From the NCBI GenBank assembly GCA_937872895.1, contig CALMUP010000003.1, positions 1-64,000 on the forward strand: a DNA stretch of 64,000 nt, in the 5' to 3' direction. Positions within the stretch are counted from its first letter, which is position 1. Every line of letters starts with the position of its first letter. Positions 25,016 to 64,000 of this stretch are shown piece by piece. Origin of the DNA: an uncultured Verrucomicrobiota bacterium (GTDB taxonomy: Bacteria; Verrucomicrobiota; Kiritimatiellia; CAIVKH01). The notes under the pieces are model-generated. The model was not told the DNA's origin. It worked only from the letters and a program-made list of their open reading frames with translations, and searched no databases. A program made the position numbers and the translations under genes.

Positions 25016-25051
25016 ATTGATTCTTTTTGTCGCATGGACGATAGTCCGGTC

Positions 25052-29168: not shown

Positions 29169-29216
29169 GATGCTACTCCTGACGTGATTCCCCGAACCGA
29201 ACGTGATGTACTTTCT

Positions 29217-29241
29217 ACAGGGTAGCCTAAAGCAACCCTGT
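29217..29241 (-). other. Hairpin in the spacer before the Calx-beta gene
   Basis: A 7-bp perfect stem (ACAGGGT/ACCCTGT) with an 11-nt loop in the 105-bp gap between 29274 and 29168. It has no T-run. It could be a weak attenuator or an mRNA-processing site; nothing else is seen in this gap. Confidence 0.35.
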
Positions 29242-29273
29242 TCGTTGAGCATTAAATGCCCGTGAGATTCCCT

Positions 29274-30143
29274 TTAATCCACCAGGCGAATCCGGAACTG
29301 CTGGACGTCGCCAGCGGCCCCGTTGGTGAACGCGATGCTGGACAGGGATCCGGTGGCGACCACGGGACCGCCAACATTGGTGAAGGTTACGTCCGGATCA
29401 TTGAGTGATCCGAGGGCGGCCTGGATCTGGTAGGTTTTACCGGACACGGAATCCCAGGTGACCTGCATGAGGTGGTTGCCGCCGCGAATGGCGTCCATGG
29501 AAAGGAAACTTGATGGATCGCCCAGGCCGGTGCCGGCGCGAAATTCCTCGAGGTCGGACATACCGTCGCTGTCGCTATCCCACAGGGACGAATTGCCACC
29601 GAGGGCTTTTTCCCAGGAATTGTGGACGCCATCGCCGTCGTCGTCGGCGGTATCGAAGGCATTGGTCGCGGCGGGGAATAGCGGATAAAAATAGGCCGGC
29701 TGGTTCACGGCAAACGGTTGGGAGTCGGTATAAAACGAGGCTGCCTCCACGGAGGGTGCGTTGTAGACCCGGGCCACGACGACCCCCTCTTCCGGTCGCG
29801 GCGACACGGAGGCGCTGAAGAACCCATCCAGGGCGGGGTTGGATGGGTTGACGCCTCCGCCGATCCGCGAGGTGAAGATCACCGGGTTGTCGGGATGGGG
29901 TGTTCCATCTACTGCGGGAGGATGAAGCACGGCGGGAGATTGCACGTGAAGGAAGTGGACCAGGTTCTCGGAACTGCTCGGCATGATGAATCCACGGGCG
30001 TCCACCACGGCCTGGGTCGACTCGACCTGGATGGGAACCATTTGAGCGAATCCTGGAGCGACCGCGCAGAGGCTGATGACGCACACGGCGATCAGGCAGG
30101 CAAGTCGGGTAACCGACCGGAATGATATCTTCATCGTGTTCAT
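29274..30143 (-). CDS. Secreted calcium-repeat protein (hypothetical)
   Basis: 289 residues with a signal peptide ending near APGFAQ. The first ~160 residues are beta-rich and not recognised. Residues ~163-216 hold DxDxDG-type repeats (FDTADDDGDGVHNSWEKALG and DSDSDGMSDLEEF), resembling thrombospondin type-3 units. The last ~75 residues are a beta tail (YQIQAALGSLNDPDV, ending FRIRLVD). Its ATG overlaps the stop of the giant gene (ATGA at 30140-30143), so it should be made together with that protein. ATG at 30134 is an alternative start. Function unknown. Confidence 0.78.
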   Translation of the reverse strand: MNTMKISFRSVTRLACLIAVCVISLCAVAPGFAQMVPIQVESTQAVVDARGFIMPSSSENLVHFLHVQSPAVLHPPAVDGTPHPDNPVIFTSRIGGGVNPSNPALDGFFSASVSPRPEEGVVVARVYNAPSVEAASFYTDSQPFAVNQPAYFYPLFPAATNAFDTADDDGDGVHNSWEKALGGNSSLWDSDSDGMSDLEEFRAGTGLGDPSSFLSMDAIRGGNHLMQVTWDSVSGKTYQIQAALGSLNDPDVTFTNVGGPVVATGSLSSIAFTNGAAGDVQQFRIRLVD

Positions 30144-33100
30144 GGTGTGGTCGCCTGCCCCAGCGGGTTACCCGTTGCGTTGTTGGTCAGGTAGTTCACG
30201 GTTTGGCCGGAGCCGTTCAGCTCAAAGGCGCGGAAGAAGTAGGTGGTACCGGGGTCAAGCCCCTTCACGACGACCTGGCTGGTGGTGCCGACGGAGAGGA
30301 TATAGTGGTTGGTCCCGAGCACGGAGCCGGCACCAAACAGGTTGGTTCCGGTGTAGGGGGTTCCGTCGGCCGGGAACTGGTTGATCGGACTGCCCATGCG
30401 ACCGACCAGGACACGCTGGCTGCCGTTTCCGGGGGTCCACTGCACGGTGATATTGGTGGCGGTGACATTCGAGAACACCAACGACGACGATTGGACGGTC
30501 GGTTCGGCGGCGACGGTGTAGGCGAGGTTGGTCAGCGAGTAGTTGCCGAGGCCGCCGGCGTTCTGGGCGCGGACGCGCCAGTAGTACGGGGTGGCGGCGG
30601 TGAGGCCGGTGACGCTAAAGGAGGTCACGTTGCCGGCGAGGCGGTTGCTGTAACCGGGGGCGTACACGCTAAACACGGTGGTGGTCGAGACATCGATCAG
30701 GTAATTCGTCGCACCTCCGGTGGCGGACCACAGGGCGGTGAAGCCGGAGGAGGTGCGGTTGGTCGCGCCGATCAGGACCACGTTGGTCGGGGCGGTCCAG
30801 AACGTACCGTCACCGGAATAGCCGATACCGACCGCGTTGGTGCCCCAGCCGCGGTAGTAGATCAAGGTGCCGGCGGGCAGACCGGAGCGGACATGGCTGT
30901 AGGCACCGGACGAGGTTCCGCCTTCGGCGAGGCTGTTGCCGGTCGGGGCGGGTGCGACGCCCCAGACGGTGCCGCGGGCGATCAGCGGTCCGGCAAACGA
31001 ATCCATCTGCGCACCGAGGGTGGCGGCGTTTGCGCTGATGTTGGAGACGGTTGGCAGCGACAGAATGGGAAGACCGGCGATGCTACGCGAACCGCTGTCG
31101 GGGGTGCCTTCCTCGGACAGGCTCGAGCTGCTGCTGTTGGTGGCGCGCACCCAGTAATAATAGGTCACGCCGGCGGTGGCGGAGTTGTCGTCGTAGCTGG
31201 TTGTGTTCGCAGTGACCGAGGCAAGGTAGCTGGCGGCTCCATAGGAGGCGGTTGTTCCACGCCAGATGCCGTACCCGGTTTCGTGGTCGATGTCGTTCCA
31301 GACCAGCATCACCTTCGTCGAATAGGTGTCATCCGAAGCGGACACGCCGGTCACGGTGGCGAGGCGGCGGTAGCCGGCATCGCCGGCACCGAAGGCGCTG
31401 GCCCCGGCGCAGTTGGTGCCCTTGATCCAGTAGTAATAAACCGTTCCGGGCACGGCGGCGGCATCGAGATAGTTCGTGGCATTGGCAACGGTGGTGCCGA
31501 TGAGCGATGCCCCGGCGGAGAGGTTTACGGTATGCCGCCAGACTTGATACCCCTCCTCGTTGGCGCCGTCGTTCCAGGCGACGGTCACGGCGGCGGTGGA
31601 GGTGCCTGCGGAGACGGAAGCCACGTTGATCACGGACGAGGTCACGGTGCAGTTGTTGGTGATGGTGATGTCGAACGCAGCGGGTGAACTGAAGCAGCCA
31701 TTGGAATCCGTTGCGGTGATCAGGAATGAGAAGACGCCGGCGGACGACGGGGTGCCGGCGATCACGCCGTTGGCTCCGAGCGAGAGGCCGGACGGGATAT
31801 TGCCACCGCTGATCGTGAAGGTATACGGAGCCGCGCCACCGGCTGCGCCGAACCGGTTGGAGTAGATGCTGGACAGGGTGCCGTTCGGCATGGCGGTATT
31901 GGTGATGGTCACGCTGGCACAGGTGGTGATGAAGGTGCGGGTGCCGAAGCGGCTTACACCGGCGCTGTTCGAGGCGACGAGCTGGATGTGGTACAGCGTG
32001 CCAGGGGAGAGGCCGGTGATGGGCAGTGATACGGAGAGGGCGATGTTGGTGGCGGGCAGGTTGGTGGTCGCCGAAACTGCGCCGTAGTTCGTGGTGGTTC
32101 CGTAGCGGAAGTACGCGGTGCTGGCCAGGCGGTTCGGATTCACGGTGCCAAGCAGGGTTGCACCGGAGCCGGACACGTTGATCGGAGCCAGGGCTTGCAC
32201 GGTCGGCGCGGCCGGAAGGGCATTGGTGATCTCGACCTGTGGTGGCGGATAGAGTTGGCTGGCGCTGAAGTCCAGCTCGTAGGGCACGGCGTTGCTCTTC
32301 ACGTGGATGATCACGGCATCATCGGCTTCGATGATGAAATTCTCGGCTGAACCAGTGCCGCCGGTGACGAAGGTGAACTGGCCGGTCGTGTTCACGAAAA
32401 TACGGGCTTTCGGTTGGGCGTAGGGTCCGTAGCCGCGCTGAAGGATACGGATTTCATCGGCGCGCTGCACATTGAGGCCCCAGACCAGGTTGGTGCGAAG
32501 GCCGAGTGAATCACCCAACTCGCGGACCCTGGTCGGCCGCGGCATATTGAGCGAGAGGATGTTGTAGGCCGAGGTCAGGATGAGCACCGGTTCGGCATTG
32601 GTCCAGGGTACGCGGCCGACGAGCAACAGGTTGGTCGAGGACGGGACAAAGATGCTGAAGCCGCGGTTGGTGGCGGGGAGCGACACGTGGTCGGACGGGC
32701 TGTCATCCACCGTGCTCAACCAACCCGGGCCGGCACCGCTGGAGAGCCAGTAGTTGGTCGCGTTGGGTTGGCCGAAGGCATTCGGCTCGTACAGGATCAC
32801 CTGGGTGGCGCTGGCGATGCTGTTGCCGGCGGGCAGACGGTTGACACCGAGGAATTCCTCAAGGGTGTTCACCAGCGGCACCATGCCCTTGCCGATGAAG
32901 TTGTAGCCGTTCACGCCGTTGACGTTCACGAGTTCGGCATTCATCGCGACGATGACCTGTTCACTGGCCGCGCCGACGCGCTGCAGCGACGGGATCCAGC
33001 CATTCACCGGGGCGACGCGGTAGAAGCGCATCGTCTTGTAGGGGAGGTTGCGCGGGTGCGGGCGGTTGCTGGAGCTGCCTTCGTTCAATCCGCCGAGGTC

Positions 33101-36100
33101 GACGAAATTCGTGCCGATGACGGTCTGGGCGAGTCGCCATGAACCGTTGATGGCGTCGCTGTAGCCGGTAGCATCGGTGTAGATCACGTCGTACGGGCGG
33201 TCGTTGAGGCCGACCCACTGGACGACCACGTCGCCGCTGGCATTTACGAAGGCCTGGGTGATGGTAAAGACGTTGAGGCGCTTGGTCTCGACATCGGAGA
33301 GCGGGCCGATGTTGCCGGCGGCATCAACGCCGGCCACGGCGATGCGGTACTCGATGCCCATGACCAGGTTCGACATGATGATCGAGCCGGTTCCGATGTT
33401 GCCCAGTTCGGGGTACTCGGTCGATACGGCGAGGTAGTTGTCGTTGGAGGTAGGGCCGGTCTCGGCATCGGTGTAGTAGATGCGGTAGGTGTACCAGGGC
33501 GACAGCGGCTCGCCATCGCCGCGTGGTCCGGCGCCGACGGTTTCATTGGCTGGCGGGTTCCAGCTCACCTTGATTTCCGAGGTGTCGTCAGCGACATCGA
33601 GGATGTCGTTGCTGAGGGCGAGGTTGGTGATCACCGCGGGTGGCGTCAGGTCGATGCGGGTGACATAGGGGACGTTCATGCCGCGAGCGCGGTCGTTGGC
33701 GCGGTCGTTGTCGTTATCCACCATGAACACGTAGCCGGTGATCACGCCTTCGTCGCCGGAGGAGAAGCTGGCGTTGTTGGTGGCGGCGAGGTCGCCGGCG
33801 GTCAGGGTCAACGGAGGCGACGTCGGGTTGTGGTCGTAGCGGTACTGGTACACGCCGGAGGCGTCGAGGGTGGCGTTGGCCCAGGCAAGGTTGATAGCCG
33901 TGGTGTTGGTCCACGACAGGTAGCGGGTCAGGGCGAGGTCATCGACATAGACCGAGGGCGAGGCCACGCTGACCGCGACGAGGCGCACGGTGGCGATGCC
34001 GGTGTAATCGATCGGCAGGCTGTAGGTGGCATAGTTGGTGCCGGAGATGGCATTGGTTACCCCGATGGCGACCCAGCCGGCGTTCAACAAGGTGGCGTAC
34101 TCGGCGGTGATGTAGTTGGTGGCGGTACCGGACGAGGCGCGGGCGGCATAGAACAGGGTGCCGGGCTGGCTGGCCAGCGGCAGTTCGAGCAGGGACCCGG
34201 TGACCAGGCGCAGGTTGCGATCGGGCGTGTTCGGTTCATCGGAGGTGCTGGCGGCAACCGAGGTCAATTGCCAGGTTCCATTGAGCGGGGTCATCGCGGT
34301 GGTCTGGTAGGTCGAGCCGACGGTATTCGACCAGCCTTCCCCGTCTTCGAAACTGGTGGCGAACAGCAAGGCGGAGCGGCTGTTGTAGGTGAGGTTCGAG
34401 AACGGAACACCGGAACGATCATCATCCACGACGATGAAGCGGTTGGTTCCGCCCACGATCACCGCGCTGTCGATCACCTCGCCGTAGCAGGCACCCAGGC
34501 TGCGGGCCGACCAGAGCAGGCTGTAGGCGCCGGTGTGGATGCTGCCGTACGGGATGGCCTCAAGCGGACTGTTGGTGGCGTACATCGTGGTGCCAGCGGT
34601 GACGATGTTCGACCAGTCCGACGAATAGACATCGGTTGCGGTCGGGTCGCGCAGGGTAAAGGTCGGCGTAAACGGCGGATCGATGGCGACACCGGCCGGG
34701 TGGCTGATGGTGATGGCGAGGCTGTAACCGCCGGCGGCGAGATCGCCATCGGTGATCAGGGCGGTCGCGGCAGGCTGGTCGTTGACATAGAAATCGGAGG
34801 CCTCGGGCTCGGCGCCACTGCCATCGGTCACGGCGATGAGGAACTGCTGGGTCACGACCAGGCGGTCCCCTACCCGGTCATTGTCGGCATCGGCGACGGT
34901 GACGCGCACGGTATAGGTGCCGCAGTCGGCGATGCCGGAGAGGTTGATCGACGAGGTGATGATCGGCTCCCAGTTCACCGCATCGCCGTCATTGGTGGGG
35001 CTGAAGGTGAACAAGCCGGTGTAGGCGATCCCGCCGAACGAATCGAGCACGGTGATGACGGGTGGCTCGGTGTTGAAGGCGATGCCGCTGGTGGTATCGC
35101 GCACCTGACCGGAGATAACGACGCTGACCAGTTCGGCGGGGTTGGTCAGGGTGGTCTGGCCGTTGATGGTAAAGAAGCCGATCTGCGGCGGGTCGGTGTC
35201 ATCATCGACGACGTTGAACGGGATGTTGGTGGAGCGGGCGGCGGCATCGAACGGCCGGTCGTTGTCCGTGTCGGCGACGTGGACCTGCGCGGTGTAGGTG
35301 CCGAGTTGGATGAAGGCGTAGGTGCCGGGGGCGACGCCGTTGGAGAACGACTGGAGGGTGGTCGTTCCGGCCGGGAAGGTGGTGGCGAAGTAGTTCGAGG
35401 CGACCTGGCCGCCGTTGGTGTTCATGACGACGTAGCGGAGGCCGGCCTCGTTGCTGACCGCCACACCGCTGAACACGTCCTGGACGAGGCCGGTGATGGT
35501 CCAGCCACCGAGGAAGATGTCCTCGTCGGTGATGGTGCCGGCGGAGCTGCAGACATCGGGGAAGGTGAAGTTGAACGCGGAGAGGTTGAAGGCGGCGAAG
35601 TCATCGCCGATCCAGTTTTCCTGGTTGCCGATGTAGAACAGGATGTCTTCGCGGCTACCGCCGATGGCGAGGACGTTGGTGTTGATGATGACGTTGTCGA
35701 ACTCGCCGACCGCGACGGCGGTGAAGCCGTCGACCAGTCCGGGCGGCAGGGCGGATGAGTGGGAATCGACCGCATCGACATCCCAGACGCCGGTGAGACG
35801 GTCGTTGAGGGCGTAGATGAACTGCGGGTTCGTGTCGGTGCCCTGGTAGGCGAGGATCTGTTCACCCTGAATGTTCGGCGAGAACGAGCCGAGGCTCTGG
35901 TGGAGGACGCCGACATTAAAGACCGGGGTATTGGTGGCGACCCAGCGGACCACCGTGCCGGCGGCTACGCAGTTGGTGGCGCGCCAGACCAGCGTGCCTT
36001 CGTTGTTGCGGAAGGAGGCGGTGCTGCTGCGCCAGCCATTGTCCGTGAAGCGGATCCGGGTGCCGGCGGGAATATCCACAAGGGTGACGAAAGCGAAGGC

Positions 36101-47881: not shown

Positions 47882-48344
47882 GGAATGGACAGAAGGAGTT
47901 CGGATTGTTCCAAGGTCTGGACCCACCCTAACGCAGCGTGATGATGCTGAAGCGTCACCCGGTACCGCTGGACATGTTGGCCTATTGACGTGGTTTCTGA
48001 TCATCCGTTTGGTTTCCGCTGCGGGCTCCGATACTTGGTGGATCAGGCCAACGCTTGATCGTGTCGGATAAACCGAGCAACTACCAGCCAAAAAGGAGGA
48101 GCCGCCGGTGCGGGCAACCCGCTCGGGCGTATCCATTCCACGATGTGATCGAAACGTTTTCACAATTGGGCGGGGTTTCCGTTCGAAGATCCCCCACTCT
48201 AGCCCCATACCAATACCTATCCTGTTTTAAAGGTAGATACGGGAGGGGTTAAATGGACGTGAGTTCTTGGTTAGGCCTGGATCAACGGCGGGGCATCCAG
48301 ACCCCAACACTCAACACATCCCGTTGTTCGTCAACAGGAAACAA
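47882..48344. other. Long leader/promoter region between the two giant genes
   Basis: No credible gene. It must hold the promoter of the 5,913-residue gene, but no convincing -35/-10 pair or ribosome-binding site is visible near the start. Two dyad-like sites stand out: TTCCAAGGTCTGGAC at 47908-47922 and the LacI-family-like TCGAAACGTTTTCA at 48149-48162. Confidence 0.5.
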
Positions 48345-48376
48345 AAGGCGGCGGCACGAGATCGTGCCGCCGCCTT
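48345..48376 (-). terminator. Rho-independent terminator of the upstream giant gene
   Basis: A perfect 15-bp stem (AAGGCGGCGGCACGA and its complement) with a 2-nt centre. On the minus strand it is followed by TTTGTTTCC. It lies 24 bp after the stop at 48400 and separates the two giant genes into different transcripts. Confidence 0.85.
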
Positions 48377-48399
48377 GCCAATCACCCGTTTGTTCCGGA

Positions 48400-54300: not shown

Positions 54301-57300
54301 GCCGAAGCCGGACTCGGTGGAGGAGCCGCCGAAGTCGATACCGAGCCACTGCGAGTTGAAGATCTTGCCCGCGAAGACGCGCTCGGTGGATCCTTCCATG
54401 AACGAGATGCCCGCATAGCCATTGTTGTCGTTCGCGTCCTTGCGCATGGCCACGGCGGCGAAGAGCTTGCCGGTCGAGACGGCCGGGAAGTGGCGGCGGG
54501 CGGTGATTTCCGAGGCGGTGCTGCCGCAGATCCGGTTGCTGACCGCGGCCGGATAGTTGTTCGGAACGGCCAGGTTGGTCATTGTGAGCGTGAAGGTCGA
54601 GCTGTTCCACGCGTTGGTCCAGCCGGTGCCGCCGGTCAGGCCGTTCAGCGCGGTGCCGGCGGTGTTGGTGAACGGATCGACGATCTCGTTCACGAAGTAA
54701 CCGATGACGGTCAGGTTGTTGGTTACGAAGCGGGTGCCGTTGGTCTGGTTGCCGGCGAGGGCGACCACCGCCTGGTAGGTGCCGGGGTTCAACGAGGCGA
54801 CATTCACCGCGGCGGTGTGGATCTGCGACTGGCCGTCGTTGAGGGTCACCGAGGTGTTCGGGTTCACGGTCAACCAGCCGGAGCCGCCATTGTAGGTGAT
54901 CGAGGCGTTGTAGATCAGCGGGCCGACACCGTTGTTGGTGACGGTGAAGTTCGGCCAGGTGCCGCTGCCGCTGACCGTACCATACAGCGAGGTGATGTTG
55001 AGCACGCTGGTATTGACCTGCATGCCGGCCAGGCTGGCGCCGGCCACGACCTCGAAGGTGAACTCGTTGGTGGCGATGGAGCGGTCGCTGGTGCGGTCGT
55101 TGTCGGCGTCGGCCACGATCACGCGGGCGGTCCAGGTACCGGTGATGGCGCTGGCCACCGGGTTGTTGTTCGAGCTGCCGATCACGGTCAGCGTGGTCGC
55201 ACCGCCGTTGCCGAACGGAACATTGTTGAAGGCCTGGCGCAACTGCATCACGCCGTTCGGATCCCACAACTCGAAGTAGGGCGAGCTATTGGGTTGGACG
55301 GTGTTGGTGCCGTTGACGTTGATGCCGCTGTTGCCTTGCGACGAACCGTCGACAACGCGGCCGGTGATGGACCAGAACGAACCGGAGAGCAGTTCGACCA
55401 CGCTGGCGGTGTGAACGCCTTCGGTACCGCGGATGGCGAAGTTGGTGATCAGCGGCGGCAAGGTGTCATCATCCGTGACGACGAGCCAGCCGTGCTGCTG
55501 GTCGAGCAACGAGTCGCGGTCATTGGCGCGGTCGTTGTCGGCATCGCGCCAGGTGATGGTCACGCGGTTGCTGCCGACCACGCCGGAGGCGGCGTTGGTG
55601 ACGAGGTTGTCGATCTCGCCGGGAAGCATCGCACCTACCCACGACCAGACGCTGGTGGCGGAGGTATTGGTGGTGTCGCTGAAGCCCGAGCTGCGGGTAG
55701 TATCCCAGTTGAACACGTTGCTGACGATGGCCGAACCGATGGTCAGGAACGACTGGCTTTCCGCATCGGTGGTGCCACGCGACAGGCCGGAACCGGCATC
55801 GCGGGCGCCGAAGTAGAACACCAGCGGGGTGGCGTTCGACACGTGGTTGGCCAGGTAATGGTCGGTCAGGCGGAAGGTGATGTTGGTGCTGCTGGTGCCG
55901 CCCACCGAGCCGACGGCGGTGTTGTTCGACGAGAGCTGCATGAAGCGGGTCGAGCTGGTGAACTCCGGCGAGTGGATGGCCATCACGGTCGGGGCGGCGG
56001 TGTCGTCATCCACCACGGTGAAGGTGATGGCGGTGCCGTTCGACAGGGCGGGGTTGTTGATGCTGGTCAGGCCGTTCGACGAGATCGCGCTCCAGCGGCC
56101 GGTGTAGGTGCCGAGCACGGTGTCGGCGAATCCGACGACCGACTGGGTGTTGTTCGAGGCCCGGACGGTCAGGCCGCCGTCGATGTAGGTGAAGGCATTG
56201 AACTGGCGATCGGTGATGACCTGCACGCCGAGCGGACTGAGGATGTCGTAGTTCGGGATGAAATACGGAGGCGTGGTGTTGACCGTCTCGATGCCGGCGC
56301 CGGAACGCAGGTCGAGGGCGACGGTGTAGGTGCCGTCGCGGATCTGGCCGTCGAACACGTAGTTCGTGGCGTTGCCGATCACGTAGTTGGTCGCGTACGG
56401 ACCGCCGGTCAGGCGGAGCAGGTCGGCCCAACTGGTGGCGACGCGGAGTTCATCGAAGTGTACCTCGCCGTTCCAGCCGATATCGGCGCTGGCGCTGAGG
56501 CGGATGCCGTCGATGCGGGTCGCCGAGGCGTTGGTGGCACCGGCAAAGTAGGTCGGCTCGATGGACGGCACAGACGTGGCCGAGTCATAATAGATGGCCA
56601 TCAGGGTCTTGGTATTGAAATCAAACCGGCCGATCAGCAGGTGTTCATTCGCGGCCGGGAAGCTGTTGGCCGCGCCGAAGAGGCTGCCGCCGCTCGGGGT
56701 GGAAGCACCGAACTGGTCATCACCACCGCCGCGGTGACCGAAGAAGCCCACTTCGGTGGAGCCGCTCATCAGGCTCACGCCACTTCGCTTGTTGTCGCCG
56801 GCGCCTTCGTTGAACTGGCGGCGGTACAGCACGGCAACGTACAACTGGCCGGAGGTGACTTCGGCCATACCGCGGGACGCGCTGTAGGTGGTGGAGTTGG
56901 TGGTCTTGATGACCAGGCGGTTCGCCTTCTCATCCGGCCACTGCGGCTGGAAGGCGGAGAAGTTGCCGCTATCGATCACCACATCCACCGGGGCGTTCGG
57001 GGCGGAGGTGGTCCAGGCGTTGGTCCAGCCCTGGCCGCCGTTCAGGCCGCTCACCGCGACGGCATTGGTGTAGGCGAACTGTTCGACGAGTTCACCCGCG
57101 CCATAGACTTCGGTGGTGGCGGAGGCGGTGACGCCGGTCGAATAGAAGTTGCCGCTGTACGAGAAGAATTCGTAGTGGTGGGTGGTCCCCTGCCCGACGA
57201 TGTGCTCGAGGCTGGTGGCGCTGCCCTTGTAGATGACGGTGCCGCCGCCGAGGCTGTCGCCGACGTTGTAGGGCGCGCCCTGGACCGGGTCGCCCGAGAC

Positions 57301-60300
57301 GGCTGCGCCGGCACGGTGCACGATCATGACGTTGGTATAGGTCTGGGTCCAGGCGAGACGGACCATTTCCTTGCCATCGGCGACGGCGGTCTGGTTGGTC
57401 GGGTTCGGGATGTTGCCGTCCACGGTGATCCGCACCGCGCGGTCGGTGTAGGTCACGGTGCCGGTTACGCCACCGAGCCAGTTGATCGAGGCGAAGGTGC
57501 CGATGACCGCACTGCTGTTCAAGCTGGTCACCACGGTGTAGGTGCCGGCGGCCCACGGGCCCTCGTTGCTGATGGTCAGGGTGCCGGCAACGGTGATGTC
57601 GTCCTGGACGAGGATCGGGGCGAGGCCGCTGTTCACGAAGGTAACGCGCAACTCGGCGGCGGCGCTCTGCATGGTGAAGTCCTCGGTGGTGCCATCGCCG
57701 ATGGTAATCGACGGGGCGGAGCCGACGACGTGGAACACGCCGGTTCCGGTGCCATCGGACGAGCCGAGCAGGAGGTTGTGGTCGGTCGTGATCACGCCAC
57801 CGGTGACGGTGTAGAAGCCGAACGATCCGGCGGTTGCACCAATGTTGAAGCTGGCGGTGCCGCTGACCAGGTCGAGGGTACCGCCGGTCTGGGTAACCAC
57901 GCCGGTCGCACCGGAGGCGAAGCCGACGACGAACGGGTTGTTCGCGATGACCGTGCCGTTGCCGCCGATGTTCAGGGCGGCCAAAGCACCGGCCTGGGTT
58001 CCGAGGTCGATGTCATGGGCCTCGAGTACGCCGCCGGTGACGGTGGCGGTGCCGCTGAAGTCGATTTCGAAATCGGACGTGCCGGATGCGACTACGCGGC
58101 CGCCACCGACCAGCAGGGTTGAGCCGGCGCCGCCGGCATTATCGGACAGGCGGATAATACTGCCCGTCACGGTACCGCCGTGTACCGCCATCACACCGGG
58201 TGCGTTGTTGCCGATGATGATGCTGGAGTTCGCCAGGAAGTCGCCGCCGGTGATCGAAACGATGCCGGTCGAGTTCGCCGTATCCGCGACTATCAATTGA
58301 CTGGTCGCGATCACCGATCCGCCAGACATGTACATGGCACCGAAGGACGGGTTGCCGCCGGTCGCGGTGCCGAGACGGACGCTGCGGCCAACGGAAACCG
58401 TACCGCCGTTCACGAACAGGGTGTTGGTGCGGGTGCTGTTGGACAGGTCGCCGACGATGATATCGGCGGTGCCGCCGTTCACGCTCACGGTGGCGGCGCC
58501 GCCGACCGTCATCAGGCCGAGACCATTGCGTCCGACGCGGATGGTTGGGGTGTCAACACGACCGCCGGTGACCTCAAACCGGCCGGTGGAATTGACATTG
58601 CCGTTGCCCATATAGATCTGCGTACCGACGGACAAGACGCCGCCGGTCATGGTGTAACGCCCTTCGGTGGCGGTTAGTTCGCCGATGGACACCGTGGCAA
58701 CCGTTACCGTACCCGCGTTCTGCAGGAAAACCGCGCGGTTGTTGGCGTTGCTCATACCGATGTGGATATTGCCGGCCACATCAATGCGTGACGCAACGCC
58801 GTTCACGATGGCGGTGGAGGCGCCGGCGGCGCCGACGATCATGTTGACGCTGGAGGTGAGGGTACCACCGCTCATGGAGAATACGGCCACGGAATTGTTC
58901 GACTGGCCGAGGATCAGGTTGCTGACCGAGAGTGAACCGCCGGTCTGCAACAAGGTTCCGGTAGTGCCCGAGTGACCGATGAAGAGGCTTGCCGCAGCAC
59001 GGCCGGCGGTGGCGACGACACCGGTGTAGCTGTTGCCGATGAAGGCGTTGTTGCTGAAGGCCGGTTCGGTATCGGCGGTCCAGTTCGCGGCGGTGTTCCA
59101 GTTGCGGTCGGCGCCGCCACCGGCATCCCAGATGTAGGTCGGGGGCGCCTGCAACAGGGCGTCCCAGGTGGTGGCGATGCGGATCTCGTCCCACCGGGTG
59201 ACCACGGTGCCGGAGCCGGACTCGAGGCGGACGCGGTTGATGCGGGTCGGGTCGGCATCGGTGATCTGGGCGTGGGCGGCCGGCTCGACCGACGGGATGC
59301 TCTGGGTCGCGTTGGTGAAGATCCAGCCGCGGGCGATGTCGTTGTCGAAGTCGTACATGCCGATGATCGTGTAATCCGTATCATTGGCCAGCGTGCCGCC
59401 GTTCTGGACGTTCAGGCTGCCGCCATCGACGGCGAACATGTTGACGTTGGTGGCACCGCCGCGTTCACCGTAGAAGATCTGCTCGACCCCGTTGTTGAAG
59501 AAGCTGAGGCCGGCGTAGCCCGAGCCGTTGCTCACGCGGAACTTGTAGGACACGTACAGCTTGCCGCTGGTGTACTCGGCGAATTCGCGGTAGGCGGAGG
59601 AGCTGGTTCCGGTCACCACGTTGCCGGCGTCGGCCGGATAGCCGGTGATGGCGGAGAACAGGGAGGTCGAGAAGCCGTAACCGCCGGACGACACGGTCCA
59701 GGCGTTGGTCCAGCCGATGCCGCCGTTCACGCCGGACAGCGAGGCGTTGTTGGTATAGGAGAACGGCTCGATGATCACGCCGGCGCCATAGACGGTGGTG
59801 GTGGCACCGACGGTGGTGACGGCGGAGTAGCGGTCGTTGTTGATCGTGTACACGTTGTAGAAGTTGGTGCTGCCGGGCTGCACGACCTGTTCAAAGAACG
59901 AGGCGGAGCCCTTGTACACGACGCGGCCGCCGCCGAGGGTGTCGCCGAGGTTGTAGGCGATGCCCTGGGTCGGGTCGGCGCTCGGGGCGTTGGTCTGGCG
60001 GCTGACAATGAGGATCTGGCGGCCGGACGGTTCGGTCACATCCACGCGCACAAACTCGGCGCCGGACGGGGTCGCGCTGACCACGGTGGGCGGCGGGATG
60101 GCGGTGACGACGAGGGTCACGACGATTTCCTGCGCGGCATTGGTCTGGTTGCCGGCCACGCGGTTGGTCGCGGTGTAGGTGCCGGTGGCGGTGAACGTGG
60201 CGGAGGCGACGTGGCCGGTGTGGATACGCACGCCGGTGATGCCGAGGCTGTTGTTGGTCGGGTTCGCGGCGAACCAGCCGGTGGCGCCGGTGCCGTAGGT

Positions 60301-63300
60301 CTGGAAGTTCGTGTAGATCAGTGTTCCGGCCGAACCGACGTTGGTCACGTTGAAGGTGGAGAGCACGTCGGGGTTGCTGCCGAGCATGGCGGTGTACGAA
60401 AGGGTCAGCGGACCGACGGCCAGGCCGGGGGCGGACGGGGGCTCGACCACCGAGAACGAGATCACGTTGGTGCTGCGCAACGAGTCGTCGGTGCGGTCGA
60501 TGTCGTAATCGACGGCGAAAACGGTCAGGGTGTAGGCACCGGCGACCATCGTGGCCAGCGGGAAGTTGTTGCTGACCAGGCCACCGGCGGTGGCGCCGCC
60601 GTTGGCGAAGTTCACCGCGAACACGCCACTGCTCACTGCCGAGCCGTCACGGGTCAGCACGAAGGTGTTGCTGTTGGCGAACAGGCCGCTGAAGGCATCG
60701 GTGACGGTGCCGGTGACCCAGAAGCCGCCGGTGAATTCGTTGTTGGTGTACACGGCACCGCTGAGAGCGCGGCCCTGGCCGATGAAGGTGCCGATGACCG
60801 GCGGCGTGGTGTCGTCGTCCACGACGGTAAACACGGTCTTGGTGCCGTTGGACAGGCTGTCGGAATTGGAGGTCAGCACGCCGTTCGAGTTCGCGGCGGT
60901 CCAGCGCGAGGTGTAGGTGCCGAGGGTCACCGAGGCGGCGACGGCACCGGCGTGGGTGGCGTTCGAGCTGAGCAGCACGCGGCCGGCATCGCTGAAGGTG
61001 TTGTTGGCAAAGGCCTGGTTGGTCAGGATGCGCGTGCCGGCGGAGTTCCAGATGTCAAAGCTCGGCAGGCTCGCGGTGTTTGAGATGCCGGCACTGTCAT
61101 AGAAGGTGAAGACAAACGGATAGGCGCCGGAGGCGACCTGAGCATCGGTCACGTTGCTGCCGCCGTTGATGGCGTAGCTGGATGCCACGGGGCGGGTCAG
61201 GCGGAGCAGGTCTGCCCACGACTGGGCGACGCGGACCTCGTCAAAGTAGGTTTCGCCGTTCCAGCCCGATGAGGCGCCCGACGCGAGGCGTATGCCGGTA
61301 ATCTGGGCGGCGGGGGTCCCGGAAACACTCACGGTGAAACTGGGTTCCGTCGAGGGAACAGCATCACCGCTATTGTAGAAGATACCGTTCATCGTGCCGG
61401 AGGCGAAATCGTAACGGCCGATGATCAGGCGATCGACACCGGCCGGGAACGAATCATTCCCGCCGGAGGTCACCGGGGATCCGCCCGCGTCCACACCGAA
61501 GCGGTCGTCGTTGCCCGAGCCGCCGGGTTCACCGACGAAGGCGATTTCGGTGCTGCCATTCATGAAACTGATACCGGAGAACTTGCCGTCGGCACCTTCG
61601 TTGAATTGGCGACGGTAGAGGGCGGCGACGTAGATCGAGCCGGTGCTGACCGAGGGGAACCCGCGGAAAGCGGCATAGGTAACCGAGCTGGTGGTGGCGA
61701 GCAACAGGCGGTTTCCGTTCTCGGTGGGCCAGAAGGGTTGGAAGGTTGAGAAGTTGCCCGAGTTGATCACGGCGTCGGTATTCGTGCGGGGCACGCTGAT
61801 GGTCCACGCATTGGTCCAGCCTTGTCCGCCACCGAGGCCCTGCAGGCCGACGGAATTGGTATAACCGAACTGCTCGACGAGTTCGCCGGTCTGGTACACC
61901 AGCGTCGTCGCTCCGGCGCTGACCACGGCGGAGTAGTGATCGTTGTTGATCGAGTAGAAGGCATACAGGTTCTCCGAGCCGGGCTGGACGACGTGGTCAA
62001 GGCTGGCGGCGCCGCTGTTGTAGAGGATGACGCGCGAACCATCGCCGAAGGTATAGCCGGCGGAATAGGTTGTGCCGTTGGTCGGCACGGTCGGTGCGTT
62101 CGTCTGCCGGTGGATGATCATGACATTGTAACCGGCATCCTTGGTCCAGGCCAGGCGGACCAGTTCGCGACCGTCCGGCGTGGCCGTCTGGGCGGAGGGA
62201 GCGGGAATGGCGGAGATCGTCCACGAGACGCTGACGGTCTTCGGGCTGTTGGTGGTGGCGCTGTCGCCGGTGATCGTGATGGTGGCGTTCGAGGTGCCGG
62301 GGGAGATGCCGGAAACGAGTTGGACATGGGCGGTGTGGACGTTGCCCGCGCCGGCGGCGGCGGTGAAGGTGTTGTTGCTCAGGCGCAGCCAGTTCGCGTT
62401 GGTGGCGAGGGTATAGGTCATCGAGCCGAGGCCGACGTTGGTGACCGCAAAGGCCTGGAAGGACGGCGACGGCAGCGAGCCGAGCACGGAGGAGAAGGCC
62501 AGCGTGGTCGGGAAGTTCGAGATGCCGCTACCGGCGCCGGTCCCCTGGATGCTGAAGTTGAACGGGTTCTCGGTCAGGCCGTCCTCGAAGGCGTCATCCG
62601 TGGTGGAGAAGCTCAGCGCGGCGGAGCGCAGGCCGGCCGCCGACGGATTGAACTGGACGGTGAAGGTGGTGGTATTGCTCGGGTTCAGGGTCGAGGCCGG
62701 CTGGGCGGTGACAATGAAGTCGGCGGCGTGGGTGCCGGAGGTGGTCACGGTGCCGAGGGACATCGCACGGTTGCCCGAGTTGGTGATGGTGTAAGTGATG
62801 TTCGAGGTCGCGCCGTTGACGCCAACCGAACCGAAGTCGGTGCCGTTGGCGGTGCTCGGGGAGGCCGAGCCATCGGCAATGGAGACGCCGGAGACGGTCA
62901 CGGCGATCTCCACAAAGGTGCCGGTGCCCTGGACGCGGAAGGTGTAGGGATTCTTCGCGCTGGCGACGGTGCTGGTGAACTGGATGTCGGCGAAGGCGGT
63001 GCCGGAGGTCGACGGGTTGAACTGCACCTGGAAGGTGGTGGTCGCGCCGATGGCCAGCGAGGCGGCGGGCTGGACGGTGACGATGAAGTTGGTCGGGTTG
63101 CCGCCGGCGTTGGTGGTGACGTTGCCGATGCCGAGCACGGCGGCGCCGCTGTTGGTGATGGTGTAGGTGCGGGTCAGGGTTCCGCCGTCGATGAGCACGT
63201 CGCCGAAATCGGTGTGGTCGGCGAGGGTCGGGGTGGTATCGCCGTCGGGGATCAGCACGTTGTTGCCGAACAGGTCGAGGTCCTCGAGGGCGGCAACGAC

Positions 63301-64000
63301 CGTGAATTCGATGTCGGTGGAGGTGGATTCGCTGTCACCGGCGCGGTCGATGTCGTAGTTCACGCTGAACACGCGCAGGGTGTAGCTGCCGGAGGCGGAG
63401 ACGTCGCCGGAGGCGATGGTGACGGTAAGCTGTCCATTGCTGCTGACCGCGGTGCCGTCGGCGAACAGCGCGGTGAAGGCGCCGCTGTTGATGGAGGCGT
63501 TGTTGCGGAACAGGGTCCAGCGGTTACTGGTGCCGCCGTAGACGCCGCTCTGGGCATCGGTCACGAGGCCGGTAACGACGAGGCCGGAACCGAGTTCGGT
63601 GTTGGTGTAGGTGCCGCCGGAGAGGGTGCGGCCGCGGCCGGTGAACCCGGAGTGGACGGGGCCGGTGGTGTCGTCGTCGGTCACGGTGAATGCCTGGTGT
63701 TCGATGGTGGTCAGGCGGTCATCGGTGCGGTCATTGTCGTTGTCGGCAACATACACGCGTGCGGTCCAGGTTCCGAGGCTGATATCTCCGGCGGCGATGG
63801 CGGCAGCGGAGCGGGCCAGCGGGGCGGCGGAGGCGAGGCCGGCGCCGTCGGACGGCGTGGTGGTAAAGGTCGCGTTGTTGATGGCCTCGGTGCCGGTCGG
63901 GTTGAGGATATCGAAGTGCGGGGGGAACGGATCGCTACCGGGAGTGCCATCGGCGTCGATTCCGCTGCCGGTGTCCTGCACGAGTCCGGTGAAGGACCAG
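48400..64000 (-). CDS. Giant secreted modular protein, 5' end outside the window (>5,190 residues)
   Basis: Open without interruption to the window edge, so the N-terminus and signal peptide are not seen. From the edge inward: a VDDDT module, two choice-of-anchor-D domains (~62560-63290), BACON-like and Fn3-like units and a jelly-roll module, a second such set, a beta-helix-like segment (57417-59135), a third jelly-roll, VDDDT-type modules (55030-56400), BACON plus jelly-roll (to 54066), Fn3-like units, a fifth jelly-roll (52250-52955), more DDDT/DDDV modules (~49900-51700), an Fn3-like unit and a terminal region ending WYTPPNKNFNP. The terminal ~350 residues align by eye with residues ~4860-5217 of the downstream giant. 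It is a paralogue; no sorting signal is recognised. Confidence 0.87.
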   Translation of the reverse strand, partial: WSFTGLVQDTGSGIDADGTPGSDPFPPHFDILNPTGTEAINNATFTTTPSDGAGLASAAPLARSAAAIAAGDISLGTWTARVYVADNDNDRTDDRLTTIEHQAFTVTDDDTTGPVHSGFTGRGRTLSGGTYTNTELGSGLVVTGLVTDAQSGVYGGTSNRWTLFRNNASINSGAFTALFADGTAVSSNGQLTVTIASGDVSASGSYTLRVFSVNYDIDRAGDSESTSTDIEFTVVAALEDLDLFGNNVLIPDGDTTPTLADHTDFGDVLIDGGTLTRTYTITNSGAAVLGIGNVTTNAGGNPTNFIVTVQPAASLAIGATTTFQVQFNPSTSGTAFADIQFTSTVASAKNPYTFRVQGTGTFVEIAVTVSGVSIADGSASPSTANGTDFGSVGVNGATSNITYTITNSGNRAMSLGTVTTSGTHAADFIVTAQPASTLNPSNTTTFTVQFNPSAAGLRSAALSFSTTDDAFEDGLTENPFNFSIQGTGAGSGISNFPTTLAFSSVLGSLPSPSFQAFAVTNVGLGSMTYTLATNANWLRLSNNTFTAAAGAGNVHTAHVQLVSGISPGTSNATITITGDSATTNSPKTVSVSWTISAIPAPSAQTATPDGRELVRLAWTKDAGYNVMIIHRQTNAPTVPTNGTTYSAGYTFGDGSRVILYNSGAASLDHVVQPGSENLYAFYSINNDHYSAVVSAGATTLVYQTGELVEQFGYTNSVGLQGLGGGQGWTNAWTISVPRTNTDAVINSGNFSTFQPFWPTENGNRLLLATTSSVTYAAFRGFPSVSTGSIYVAALYRRQFNEGADGKFSGISFMNGSTEIAFVGEPGGSGNDDRFGVDAGGSPVTSGGNDSFPAGVDRLIIGRYDFASGTMNGIFYNSGDAVPSTEPSFTVSVSGTPAAQITGIRLASGASSGWNGETYFDEVRVAQSWADLLRLTRPVASSYAINGGSNVTDAQVASGAYPFVFTFYDSAGISNTASLPSFDIWNSAGTRILTNQAFANNTFSDAGRVLLSSNATHAGAVAASVTLGTYTSRWTAANSNGVLTSNSDSLSNGTKTVFTVVDDDTTPPVIGTFIGQGRALSGAVYTNNEFTGGFWVTGTVTDAFSGLFANSNTFVLTRDGSAVSSGVFAVNFANGGATAGGLVSNNFPLATMVAGAYTLTVFAVDYDIDRTDDSLRSTNVISFSVVEPPSAPGLAVGPLTLSYTAMLGSNPDVLSTFNVTNVGSAGTLIYTNFQTYGTGATGWFAANPTNNSLGITGVRIHTGHVASATFTATGTYTATNRVAGNQTNAAQEIVVTLVVTAIPPPTVVSATPSGAEFVRVDVTEPSGRQILIVSRQTNAPSADPTQGIAYNLGDTLGGGRVVYKGSASFFEQVVQPGSTNFYNVYTINNDRYSAVTTVGATTTVYGAGVIIEPFSYTNNASLSGVNGGIGWTNAWTVSSGGYGFSTSLFSAITGYPADAGNVVTGTSSSAYREFAEYTSGKLYVSYKFRVSNGSGYAGLSFFNNGVEQIFYGERGGATNVNMFAVDGGSLNVQNGGTLANDTDYTIIGMYDFDNDIARGWIFTNATQSIPSVEPAAHAQITDADPTRINRVRLESGSGTVVTRWDEIRIATTWDALLQAPPTYIWDAGGGADRNWNTAANWTADTEPAFSNNAFIGNSYTGVVATAGRAAASLFIGHSGTTGTLLQTGGSLSVSNLILGQSNNSVAVFSMSGGTLTSSVNMIVGAAGASTAIVNGVASRIDVAGNIHIGMSNANNRAVFLQNAGTVTVATVSIGELTATEGRYTMTGGVLSVGTQIYMGNGNVNSTGRFEVTGGRVDTPTIRVGRNGLGLMTVGGAATVSVNGGTADIIVGDLSNSTRTNTLFVNGGTVSVGRSVRLGTATGGNPSFGAMYMSGGSVIATSQLIVADTANSTGIVSITGGDFLANSSIIIGNNAPGVMAVHGGTVTGSIIRLSDNAGGAGSTLLVGGGRVVASGTSDFEIDFSGTATVTGGVLEAHDIDLGTQAGALAALNIGGNGTVIANNPFVVGFASGATGVVTQTGGTLDLVSGTASFNIGATAGSFGFYTVTGGVITTDHNLLLGSSDGTGTGVFHVVGSAPSITIGDGTTEDFTMQSAAAELRVTFVNSGLAPILVQDDITVAGTLTISNEGPWAAGTYTVVTSLNSSAVIGTFASINWLGGVTGTVTYTDRAVRITVDGNIPNPTNQTAVADGKEMVRLAWTQTYTNVMIVHRAGAAVSGDPVQGAPYNVGDSLGGGTVIYKGSATSLEHIVGQGTTHHYEFFSYSGNFYSTGVTASATTEVYGAGELVEQFAYTNAVAVSGLNGGQGWTNAWTTSAPNAPVDVVIDSGNFSAFQPQWPDEKANRLVIKTTNSTTYSASRGMAEVTSGQLYVAVLYRRQFNEGAGDNKRSGVSLMSGSTEVGFFGHRGGGDDQFGASTPSGGSLFGAANSFPAANEHLLIGRFDFNTKTLMAIYYDSATSVPSIEPTYFAGATNASATRIDGIRLSASADIGWNGEVHFDELRVATSWADLLRLTGGPYATNYVIGNATNYVFDGQIRDGTYTVALDLRSGAGIETVNTTPPYFIPNYDILSPLGVQVITDRQFNAFTYIDGGLTVRASNNTQSVVGFADTVLGTYTGRWSAISSNGLTSINNPALSNGTAITFTVVDDDTAAPTVMAIHSPEFTSSTRFMQLSSNNTAVGSVGGTSSTNITFRLTDHYLANHVSNATPLVFYFGARDAGSGLSRGTTDAESQSFLTIGSAIVSNVFNWDTTRSSGFSDTTNTSATSVWSWVGAMLPGEIDNLVTNAASGVVGSNRVTITWRDADNDRANDRDSLLDQQHGWLVVTDDDTLPPLITNFAIRGTEGVHTASVVELLSGSFWSITGRVVDGSSQGNSGINVNGTNTVQPNSSPYFELWDPNGVMQLRQAFNNVPFGNGGATTLTVIGSSNNNPVASAITGTWTARVIVADADNDRTSDRSIATNEFTFEVVAGASLAGMQVNTSVLNITSLYGTVSGSGTWPNFTVTNNGVGPLIYNASITYNGGSGWLTVNPNTSVTLNDGQSQIHTAAVNVASLNPGTYQAVVALAGNQTNGTRFVTNNLTVIGYFVNEIVDPFTNTAGTALNGLTGGTGWTNAWNSSTFTLTMTNLAVPNNYPAAVSNRICGSTASEITARRHFPAVSTGKLFAAVAMRKDANDNNGYAGISFMEGSTERVFAGKIFNSQWLGIDFGGSSTESGFGIYQSTYLIVLYYDFDNDVIRTRAFNPGDTLSLTEPNTWSLVRSNAAIASIDGIRLAGSAVGNLCFDEVRVARTWETLLNQFSSEPTLHASAMTFANITTSSMTVGWTPGNGAARIVIAREGSAVTFTPVDGSNYTANADFSAGTDLGGGQKVIYNGSGTSVDFVSLNSETQYFFRVFEYNGSSGSTDYLTSGTPLNGSRWTLKIEPSEDVINFNAFTGGDTTITNTWTIPGGTFTPDGYVILRRNGSAVTDVPVDGVSYTNNQILPGSRIAVVSPGAVDTFLQSNLTACVDYHFAIFPYRVNSASGETINYMTNNPATATASTTCDEPTLQASNIVFSVIGTNTVTLNWENGNGSRRMVVVRGTNEVNQHPVDGQTYTANATFGSGSHLGSGNFIVYRNTGSTVTVVGLAPGVTYHFRVYEFNGTGGGSDYNTNTAVNNPRSTATAAFGLVYEGFDYGSFVNLSGQSGGTGWTNSWSTSGGLVETGSGDYPDFGAYPPDTPPPTRSAFIDLGNASEDGSGSRKARRNFPAMTSGRMYVALKMNNAHTMGNSDYMGVNLLNGTTVTGFFGKAFGVANQRLTVEYNGSVRTNQLDGSNSGYGLNGGVDYLVVAMIDFNNREFKARAYTQSQLAHANPDLEAAWSVEMNNVFIDRIDGIQIVASDNNQIFTFDSIRIGPSWEEVMWGLRPQHHELNGPVPTLVYIGTNYNASVYDQVVTNLSDAELKSVNNIDFAVRWDSPLGVFLTNAVATNRNIGSPNARVSPNWDPLAIGLATNQFNLDRFFTNYFGVNGATSVTTFQYRAFNITNINFENQYFVTVSAENNPGGGTVAAPNGGTWDAVPTNRAITINTPLRFYVYDDDTNVPVRGTGGMAVLTSAAPASAQAVGEVFRYFVTDGVLASNGMDVSLRAYDDYSGLQRSADGDPTTNMSITMPGFVTNNIAHFNSARSSANTLVPTATNTWSFSSTNFTWQRITDLWGGDGSGSAGQDFEVRATVPDADDDRVDDQAFLFDELFGYIRISDDDVDAPTNQNITYGGISVLNRSFYVGTNGFAIGSGDTTIRNTYDRRSGVGNNTIFAITDEEMASSGSRGLEFAFGVIDTGSGISRGASGSTNDVMSFSIGDILSGVVTGFNATLSSAANLPNVLQTNVWTFGNGELTATIITQLMHRTGSSATGSVPVVIRVPDADNDRFNDRATLAGTTVGFLQVLDDDVAGPTMSAVDVRESTGGDSILASSFETSQGWPVSSLSSGVIWTNTDPYGAWVGQGVTHTSLDPKQSGTRRLGFLTNAFAQSWLQLPPISNPGSLSIYAGRVGTGAGDPGLALERWDGASWVGYGTNLVTVPGYVPYSWNIDEPGSNLLFRIRRVDTAGVFRTQVYADDIAINSRPTWIGTNHMTNAQITINWTAAVDDYSGIEDYHIVPPAVGSIPPATTNDGIPVNAAFTTAVQSILGQQGVITGFIFAVDDDSDRPFDRAMGNVVNMIIRVDTNPPVAVQEAATVVDATIDDTTEIKVIWSNHVSAARAAGWRQSDSAPLSDWDTYIIRYHELDISSPTTTELTRSSAGWSNLLSNHLFTNMVLSNLNFDARYAISIMGRDEAGNIGPAVTVTGITTIFSVTQGFNRVDTDLEVQWIWNEERTYDVVYVDSLSMSDSFTNQWKYLTTITNAGWMTDTGNTALARVRPTTLNNTLRFYRVSRQGAWTTNNTLRRGSIEVYTTKPLNLYTGENWHSLFFIPDTATVSYVFNTNILPRGATMAESTRISWFSPTAGGTSNQNGAVTAMVWLASSGQWLWQIGGPLNSNADNKLVPLDQGFLIEIPGDSQTNQAPALSMMIIGLVPTQEVTQVIAGGSSASNRIHILSHNMPVRVPISSMGFRGSGFTGNNNGVLADEVRILSQGGNGSLQNPKARLRLRSDGTTWQYYNTPGPGASADPAQFIIEPDDAVIVIRRNAATMTWTNRLWYTPPNKNFNP
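52250..52955 (-). repeat. Jelly-roll-like module, copy 5 of the upstream giant
   Basis: The most diverged copy. It starts VYEGFDYGSFVNLSG, contains GGTGWTNSW, SGRMYVALKM, GYGLNGGVDYLVVAMIDF and IDGIQIVASD, and ends FDSIRIGPSWEEVM. Confidence 0.65.
54066..54690 (-). repeat. Jelly-roll-like module, copy 4 of the upstream giant
   Basis: Starts EIVDPFTNTAG, contains LNGLTGGTGWTNAW, GYAGISFMEGSTERVFAGK and ASIDGIRLAGS, and ends FDEVRVARTWETLL. Confidence 0.75.
56412..57097 (-). repeat. Jelly-roll-like module, copy 3 of the upstream giant
   Basis: Starts ELVEQFAYTNA, contains VSGLNGGQGWTNAW, RSGVSLMSGSTEVGFFG, IGRFDFNTKTL and RIDGIRLSAS, and ends FDELRVATSWADLL. Confidence 0.78.
57417..59135 (-). 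repeat. Beta-helix/passenger-like repeat segment inside the upstream giant
   Basis: About 573 residues starting IWDAGGGADRNWNTAANW, the opening typical of autotransporter-associated or PEP-CTERM-type beta-strand repeat regions. Some twenty short units follow with patterns such as TGGVLSVGTQIYMGNG, VNGGTVSVGRSVRLG and MSGGSVIATSQLIVAD, then a closing beta domain. It is inserted between a jelly-roll module and a BACON/Fn3-type unit. No equivalent exists in the downstream paralogue. Confidence 0.75.
59150..59780 (-). repeat. Jelly-roll-like module, copy 2 of the upstream giant
   Basis: Starts VIIEPFSYTNN, contains LSGVNGGIGWTNAW, GYAGLSFFNNGVEQIFYGE and IIGMYDFDNDIARG, and ends WDEIRIATTWDALL just before the beta-helix-like segment. 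Confidence 0.77.
61202..61889 (-). repeat. Jelly-roll-like module, copy 1 (within the window) of the upstream giant
   Basis: Starts ELVEQFGYTNS, contains LQGLGGGQGWTNAW, KFSGISFMNGSTEIAFVGE and IIGRYDFASGTMNG, and ends FDEVRVAQSWADLL. Confidence 0.78.

Follow-up and report, generated by a model that had tools for sequence, protein, structure and literature searches.

A tandem pair of giant, predicted secreted modular proteins in Kiritimatiellae with a class-wide tail domain and an adjoining partner gene

Introduction

Bap- and RTX-type adhesins are giant adhesins that are built from arrays of Ig-like domains. Giant secreted proteins are already known from the PVC group as well, and consecutive giants from lactic acid bacteria (PMC12057145, PMC11573180, PMC12863079). 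The PVC giants (Omnitrophota, Ca. Menyafoubacter) comprise thousands of residues with a signal peptide and beta-rich binding modules, and no membrane helix is reported for a 6,000-aa example (PMC12057145, PMC11573180). The consecutive giant extracellular genes Giant1-5 of Apilactobacillus kunkeei encode 3,000-8,000 aa (PMC12863079). Mostly, giant genes are reported singly, as outliers with unknown handling.

Here, we report on two adjacent giant genes, called A and B, in the first 64 kb of contig C3 (141.8 kb) from a 3.87-Mb draft genome (G000); this stretch of 64,000 nucleotides is referred to as the window. Their products share the length, the signal peptide, the beta-rich binding modules and the origin in the PVC superphylum with the PVC giants and the consecutive gene arrangement with those of A. 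kunkeei. An initial annotation of the window had missed the small partner gene next to A and the class-wide tail domain. Our search of the open-licence literature returned no paper on such a Kiritimatiellae system, and we found no earlier description there of the tail domain that recurs across the class, of its linked partner gene or of an old gene pair in this order.

Two giant reading frames on the minus strand

Gene A resides in a frame that is uninterrupted on the minus strand from 48226 to 30140, with the ATG of its signal peptide at 47881, and encodes a protein of 614 kDa with a pI of 4.6 (Table 1). The frame of gene B extends on the same strand from 48400 to 70548 (7,382 codons), i.e. 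6.5 kb past the window edge, and gives a protein of 7,380 aa (769 kDa, pI 4.8) from the ATG at contig position 70542. Of the initially annotated sizes, about 5,900 and more than 5,190 residues, the first agrees with A, whereas the second was a figure set by the window edge; extension beyond position 64000, as had been recommended, located the start of B. Sec-type signal peptides were recognised by eye in A, B and the partner. The initial description as a giant, secreted, paralogous, tandem and modular pair is thereby supported.

It is hardly conceivable that these frames were joined by assembly or polishing errors or are open through base composition. Long antisense frames do exist, e.g. of 1,361 aa, but the codon bias is of the coding type on the minus strand, curated domain models match in the A/B frame, and other genomes show conservation at the protein level that spans thousands of residues. 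The codon-position GC is constant and coding-like over all of A and B (third position 0.83-0.90). Moreover, comparable frames (e.g. 7,304, 8,028, 5,747 and 12,857 aa) occur in independent genomes, so that assembly or polishing error does not account for them, and the DNA identity between A and B peaks at about 75%, so that the pair does not represent an assembly duplicate. The second objection considered in the initial annotation, namely homology by composition only, is contradicted by many A-B high-scoring segment pairs (HSPs) in BLASTP, the best of which shows 42% identity over 1,022 columns (697 bits). The A-B alignment, the codon GC and the cross-genome protein conservation led us to reject artefactual or composition-only frames. 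The antisense frames opposite B are located at 53578-58122 on the plus strand, have a maximum length of 1,361 aa when counted from a start codon (54037-58122) and are probably a by-product of the high third-position GC, not genes.

Table 1. Coordinates of the genes, domains and modules of the locus, counted from the first nucleotide of the window
Feature	Position	Strand	Remarks
Gene A	47881-30140	minus	5,913 aa, secreted multidomain protein (predicted); signal peptide MDHLTRALRIPSLLLALLCVVLTVRPAQA
Gene B	48400-64000 in window	minus	ATG beyond window at contig position 70542
Intrinsic terminator 3' of B	48345-48376	minus	14-pair stem, fold z = -6.1
Partner gene	29277-30143	minus	289 aa; ATG overlaps stop of A
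Downstream gene	26058-29252	minus	1,064 aa; two Calx-beta, weak lamin-tail (LTD) match
Tail domain of A	32219-33292	minus	internal, followed by 692 residues
Extension of A after tail domain	30143-32218	minus	Fn3-like modules; kept in G007 orthologue
Tail domain of B	48406-49488	minus	extreme C-terminus
Jelly-roll-like module A1	45551-46216	minus	profile search
Jelly-roll-like module A2	41900-42523	minus	profile search
Jelly-roll-like module A3	40556-41221	minus	profile search
Jelly-roll-like module of B	61204-61851	minus	profile search
Jelly-roll-like module of B	59152-59745	minus	profile search
Jelly-roll-like module of B	56416-57063	minus	profile search
Jelly-roll-like module of B	54067-54657	minus	first of C-terminal pair conserved across genera
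Jelly-roll-like module of B	52258-52920	minus	second of C-terminal pair conserved across genera
Choice-of-anchor-D Ig-like modules of A	46883-47242, 45170-45535, 43190-43549	minus	
Choice-of-anchor-D Ig-like modules of B	62920-63282, 62536-62910	minus	
BACON-like modules of A	46565-46861, 42875-43168, 41573-41869	minus	
BACON-like modules of B	62206-62514, 60097-60411, 54706-55005	minus	
DxDxDR/VDDDT module run in A	34418-39430	minus	

Module composition of A and B

The module inventory was obtained by iterated profile searches of A and B. Both proteins contain anchor-D Ig modules (three in A, four in B), BACON modules (three and five, respectively) and Fn3-like modules, with one further Fn3-like type only in A; PATR beta-strand repeats are located at the N-terminus of B, outside the window. 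The choice-of-anchor-D model NF012200 scored 198 bits in A as well as 135 and 109 bits in B at a curated cut-off of 45, and BACON_2 (PF19190) scored 36.2 in A and 28.9 in B at a gathering score of 25, with other pieces marginally under it. The fn3 and PATR models were also confirmed in the A/B set. A 220-aa module, which is named jelly-roll-like by resemblance and known here from its sequence, is present in ten copies (three in A, seven in B). The DxDxDR/VDDDT modules account for 16 copies, nine in A and seven in B, and a longer variant occurs once in A and three times in B. Both types lack a Pfam match at their positions, and the best match of the jelly-roll profile among PDB sequences, CIP1 at E 0.53, is not significant. 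BACON, Fn3-like and jelly-roll modules recur together as a cassette of ~430 residues. The modules initially annotated as common to both proteins were thus recovered, anchor-D, BACON_2 and fn3 by models, jelly-roll and VDDDT as repeated families. DxDxDR motifs were counted eight times in A and seven times in B compared to about 0.05 in shuffled sequences, and the motif suggests that these modules may bind calcium.

All recognised modules of A and B are binding or structural. It has been proposed that PVC giant secreted proteins, such as those of Omnitrophota, serve as weapons or in predation, for which PMC12057145 cites West-Roberts et al.; for A and B such a role is very improbable, because Pfam and NCBIfam models revealed neither a hydrolase or lyase nor an Rhs or toxin domain in them.

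A class-wide tail domain

The terminal region that had been described as common to A and B is indeed present in both and includes a domain of ~340 aa; it is, however, terminal only in B and internal in A. In most scored carriers the domain ends about 2-5 residues before the stop codon, with A as the clear exception; a small number of frames end early at a frameshift or at the contig end. Strong copies were found in 41 of 193 genomes of the class. The 87 full copies reside in frames with a median length of 2,828 aa, 20 of which have at least 5,000 aa, up to a maximum of 12,857 aa, whereby some of these lengths are cut by contig ends. In a sample of 388 genomes of the phylum, strong matches were confined to the class, and three marginal matches outside of it belong to frames of 328-394 aa. 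The close relatives found through the domain bear the names Kiritimatiellae/Kiritimatiellia and Verrucomicrobia or are metagenome genomes labelled just 'bacterium', which places the genome of the window in this class of the Verrucomicrobiota. The frame of 12,857 aa (G279:C14:164337-202908) has a partner gene about 3 kb upstream.

No Pfam match, NCBIfam match at cut-off or PDB sequence match was obtained for the tail domain. Its structure was predicted with confidence (pLDDT 86, pTM 0.86) and has an Fn3-like start followed by a beta-rich part. The fold search returned no whole-domain PDB match and nothing that reached E 0.001; with the tail domain as well as with the partner, it gave partial Ig/Fn3-like similarity only. 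The distal 250 columns match TIGR02597 with an hhalign probability of 96% and E 1e-9, ending at both C-termini, with TIGR02597 represented by a seven-member alignment. The window genome has no match to the TIGR02597 family model, and the tail domain scores below its cut-off of 50 bits, with E = 0.003 for the best member. Judged by profile-profile comparison only, the tail domain is a distant relative of TIGR02597.

Further copies of the jelly-roll module or the tail domain, for which the initial annotation had suggested to look, were found neither upstream of B nor elsewhere on the contig. In the whole genome, no jelly-roll copy was found outside A and B, and the tail-domain carriers besides A and B comprise two smaller proteins and a fragment. 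The two proteins (2,294 and 2,227 aa) form pairs with an upstream partner gene (G000:C17:75576-83381 and G000:C20:61804-69422) and have no jelly-roll modules. The fragment is a 275-aa frame (G000:C9:136801-137118) with the distal third of the tail domain only, and similar frames of 151-205 aa exist in G002, G004, G005 and G007. A third giant gene of 7,424 codons (G000:C22:33385-55659, loci L126-L127) shows no similarity to either A or B in BLASTP at 1e-5; towards the C-terminus, its sequence resembles a C25-type peptidase by eye, with a TSP3 segment at the end.

The partner gene and its link to the giants

The stop codon of A overlaps the start codon of the partner gene (ATGA), and only about 22 bp separate the partner from the Calx-beta/LTD gene, so that A is very probably co-transcribed with the next two genes. 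From this arrangement in the sequence, A is probably the first gene of a three-gene operon (A, partner, Calx-beta/LTD). A and B are 518 bp apart. The strong terminator between them is real, as the initial annotation had stated when calling them separate transcripts, but this claim overlooked the likely operon. In a genome of another genus (G007), a 44% identical homologue of the Calx-beta/LTD gene adjoins the partner, and both follow the second giant. A Y1 (IS200-like) transposase gene is situated at 25034-25981 of the window, flanked by the Calx-beta gene on one side and the gene of a TPR protein on the other. Directly upstream of B (G000:C3:70741-77820), there are genes that resemble, by eye, those of an SGNH-hydrolase/TPR protein and a GH31-type glycoside hydrolase.

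The partner is composed of a predicted N-terminal signal helix, a conserved N-domain, a TSP3-like calcium motif (DxDxDG) and a C-terminal beta domain. The model, in which the N-terminal helix is present, is confident with a pLDDT of 91.7; in its fold search no match reached E 0.001, and the N-domain has no Pfam model. Because its TSP3 repeats made the full-length partner model match everywhere, the survey was based on an N-domain-only model, and strong N-domain matches in short frames were collected manually into the list of partners.

In many relatives, a full-length partner homologue adjoins a tail-domain giant on its upstream or downstream side. Among the 193 class genomes, 38 contain the partner, 41 the tail domain and 37 both (Fisher p = 6e-34), and among the 174 genomes outside model building the numbers are 19, 22 and 18 (p = 1e-19); since the genomes are related, these tests overstate the significance. 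In the 388-genome phylum sample, the partner is also class-specific. By an automatic measure, 33 of 78 partner genes are at most 1.5 kb away from a tail-domain giant (18 upstream, 15 downstream), which missed the partner in the window owing to the internal position of the tail domain in A. If it is counted, 34 of the 40 partners on the contig and strand of a giant adjoin it, i.e. the gene order varies while adjacency is kept. About half of the partner genes are off the contig or strand of any tail-domain giant, in genomes that are fragmented, and some have no large gene nearby (e.g. G000:C30). B has no adjoining partner in the window genome, and the partner following the first giant of G005 is interrupted by stops. 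Weak N-domain matches were also seen inside larger frames of the class that have no tail domain. The genomic pairing of giant and partner suggests that the partner may contact the tail domain and participate in anchoring.

Age of the tandem pair

The tail-domain tree unites A with the second G007 giant (100/100), whereas B falls together with the first G007 giant, G002 and G004 (99/98). Residues 4357-7380 of B (3,024 residues) are collinear with the first G007 giant (50% over 3,103 columns, 2,791 bits). Residues 3052-4491 of A match the second one with 52% identity (1,415 bits), and most of A is collinear with it, including the stretch after the tail domain. Since separate orthologues of A and B exist in the same order in G007, the A-B pair is older than the divergence of these genera. 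In six other giants, the last two jelly rolls of B have equivalents at a near-constant spacing of 577-592 residues. Together with the collinearity, this points to an old tandem arrangement with a stable C-terminal core and a length-variable N-terminal array.

The initial annotation regarded duplication followed by module shuffling as the simplest reading. For this pair, that reading is supported only in part: A and B are indeed homologous with different module order, but the G007 orthologues date the duplication before the divergence of these genera, after which the C-terminal part of B stayed collinear. An unlikely alternative is a recent tandem duplication with continuing module shuffling and no dedicated partner. 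The A-B homology with its differing order is consistent with it, as is the G005 pair, which looks recently duplicated with sister tail domains (100/100), whereas A and B each having their own same-order G007 orthologue and a DNA identity of about 75% at most speak against it. For the A-B pair, recent duplication was rejected on the G007 orthologues, the collinearity and this identity, while the sister tail domains in G005 indicate a separate duplication there too. In G007, an IS3-like insertion sequence/transposase, recognised by eye, is located between both giants (G007:C3:330603-333276), and in that assembly the second (downstream) giant consists of several separate frames, due to sequencing error or decay.

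Proposed function

We see an even chance that A and B act as a secreted surface fibre or polysaccharide-binding scaffold with a cognate partner at the tail, a proposal based on sequence features. Each giant would consist of a Sec signal peptide, dozens of beta-sandwich modules and the class-specific tail domain, and the array would combine anchor-D/ASH-type Ig, BACON and Fn3 modules, lectin-like jelly rolls and DxDxDR modules that are probably stiffened by calcium. In this putative Kiritimatiellae system, the gene of the giant adjoins that of a predicted secreted partner of ~290 aa, in which a calcium motif of the TSP3 type is present. The giant may pass the inner membrane by Sec and then reach the cell surface, where the tail domain together with the partner would hold or cap it. 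The variable N-terminal array could then extend roughly 0.2 micrometre outward, estimated from about 60 modules of 3.5-4 nm each, and bind polysaccharide or other cells. Surface location, calcium binding, partner-tail contact and carbohydrate binding are what we infer for this system. Pfam and NCBIfam models revealed no known surface anchor or export signal in A or B, and given that tail domain and partner have no significant fold match, no functional analogue backs the anchoring. A more general, tentative proposal is a two-component display or secretion system of the Kiritimatiellae, in which the calcium-binding partner would recognise the C-terminal domain and export, cap or anchor proteins that can be as long as about 12,900 residues.

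The chief rival to the surface fibre is a released protein, i.e. a soluble matrix or polysaccharide-capturing net that the partner cross-links or matures, with no anchor involved. This is possible, though we would rather doubt it. Consistent with release, the searches detected neither a membrane anchor or sortase nor an autotransporter barrel or type 9 signal, a matrix would suit the TSP3 motifs and the lectin-like modules, and the partner itself is predicted to be secreted. However, a strictly C-terminal, class-conserved domain occupies the usual site of sorting or anchoring signals.

Dozens of giant proteins from one bacterial class share a single C-terminal domain, and the small gene that is co-inherited with it and often adjoins it offers a handle on how such proteins may be exported or held. 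What seemed remarkable for its size can now be studied as a testable two-part system that recurs in the little-studied class Kiritimatiellae. The tail domain and the partner N-domain, both without a Pfam model, represent new targets for annotation.

Comparison with known systems

B contains PATR repeats as in classical autotransporters (type Va), but its C-terminus is the tail domain and no barrel model matched. For two-partner secretion (TpsA/TpsB), no TPS domain or TpsB POTRA/barrel Pfam match was obtained in the giants or the partner, the only Pfam match of which is TSP3. A sorting domain of type 9 secretion cargo was not matched by NCBIfam or Pfam models, nor were RTX nonapeptide repeats in A or B.

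The long Ig-like arrays resemble those of Ig-array adhesins such as the 7,651-aa adhesin of Mobiluncus mulieris (PMC10619420), and by this analogy an adhesin-like function of A and B may be considered; the module families are different, and no RTX repeats, LPXTG motif or type 1 secretion signal were recognised in A and B. TIGR02597 comprises uncharacterised stand-alone proteins of ~350 aa from other Verrucomicrobiota that are not fused to giants, and the tail domain ties this unexplained family to giant putative surface proteins. The PVC giants are described with lyases, Rhs-like or hydrolytic modules (PMC12057145, PMC11573180), whereas in A and B only binding or structural ones were recognised. 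Unlike the PVC giants as presented there, A and B possess the class-specific tail domain and, at A, the adjoining partner gene. The likeness to the A. kunkeei giants is one of description; these belong to a Gram-positive bacterium, have an SH3b-like C-terminus and, in three cases, alpha-helical repeats, and a partner gene is not described in the passages covered (PMC12863079). They are characterised as fibres of about 0.2 micrometre with a C-terminal domain proposed for envelope attachment (PMC12863079).
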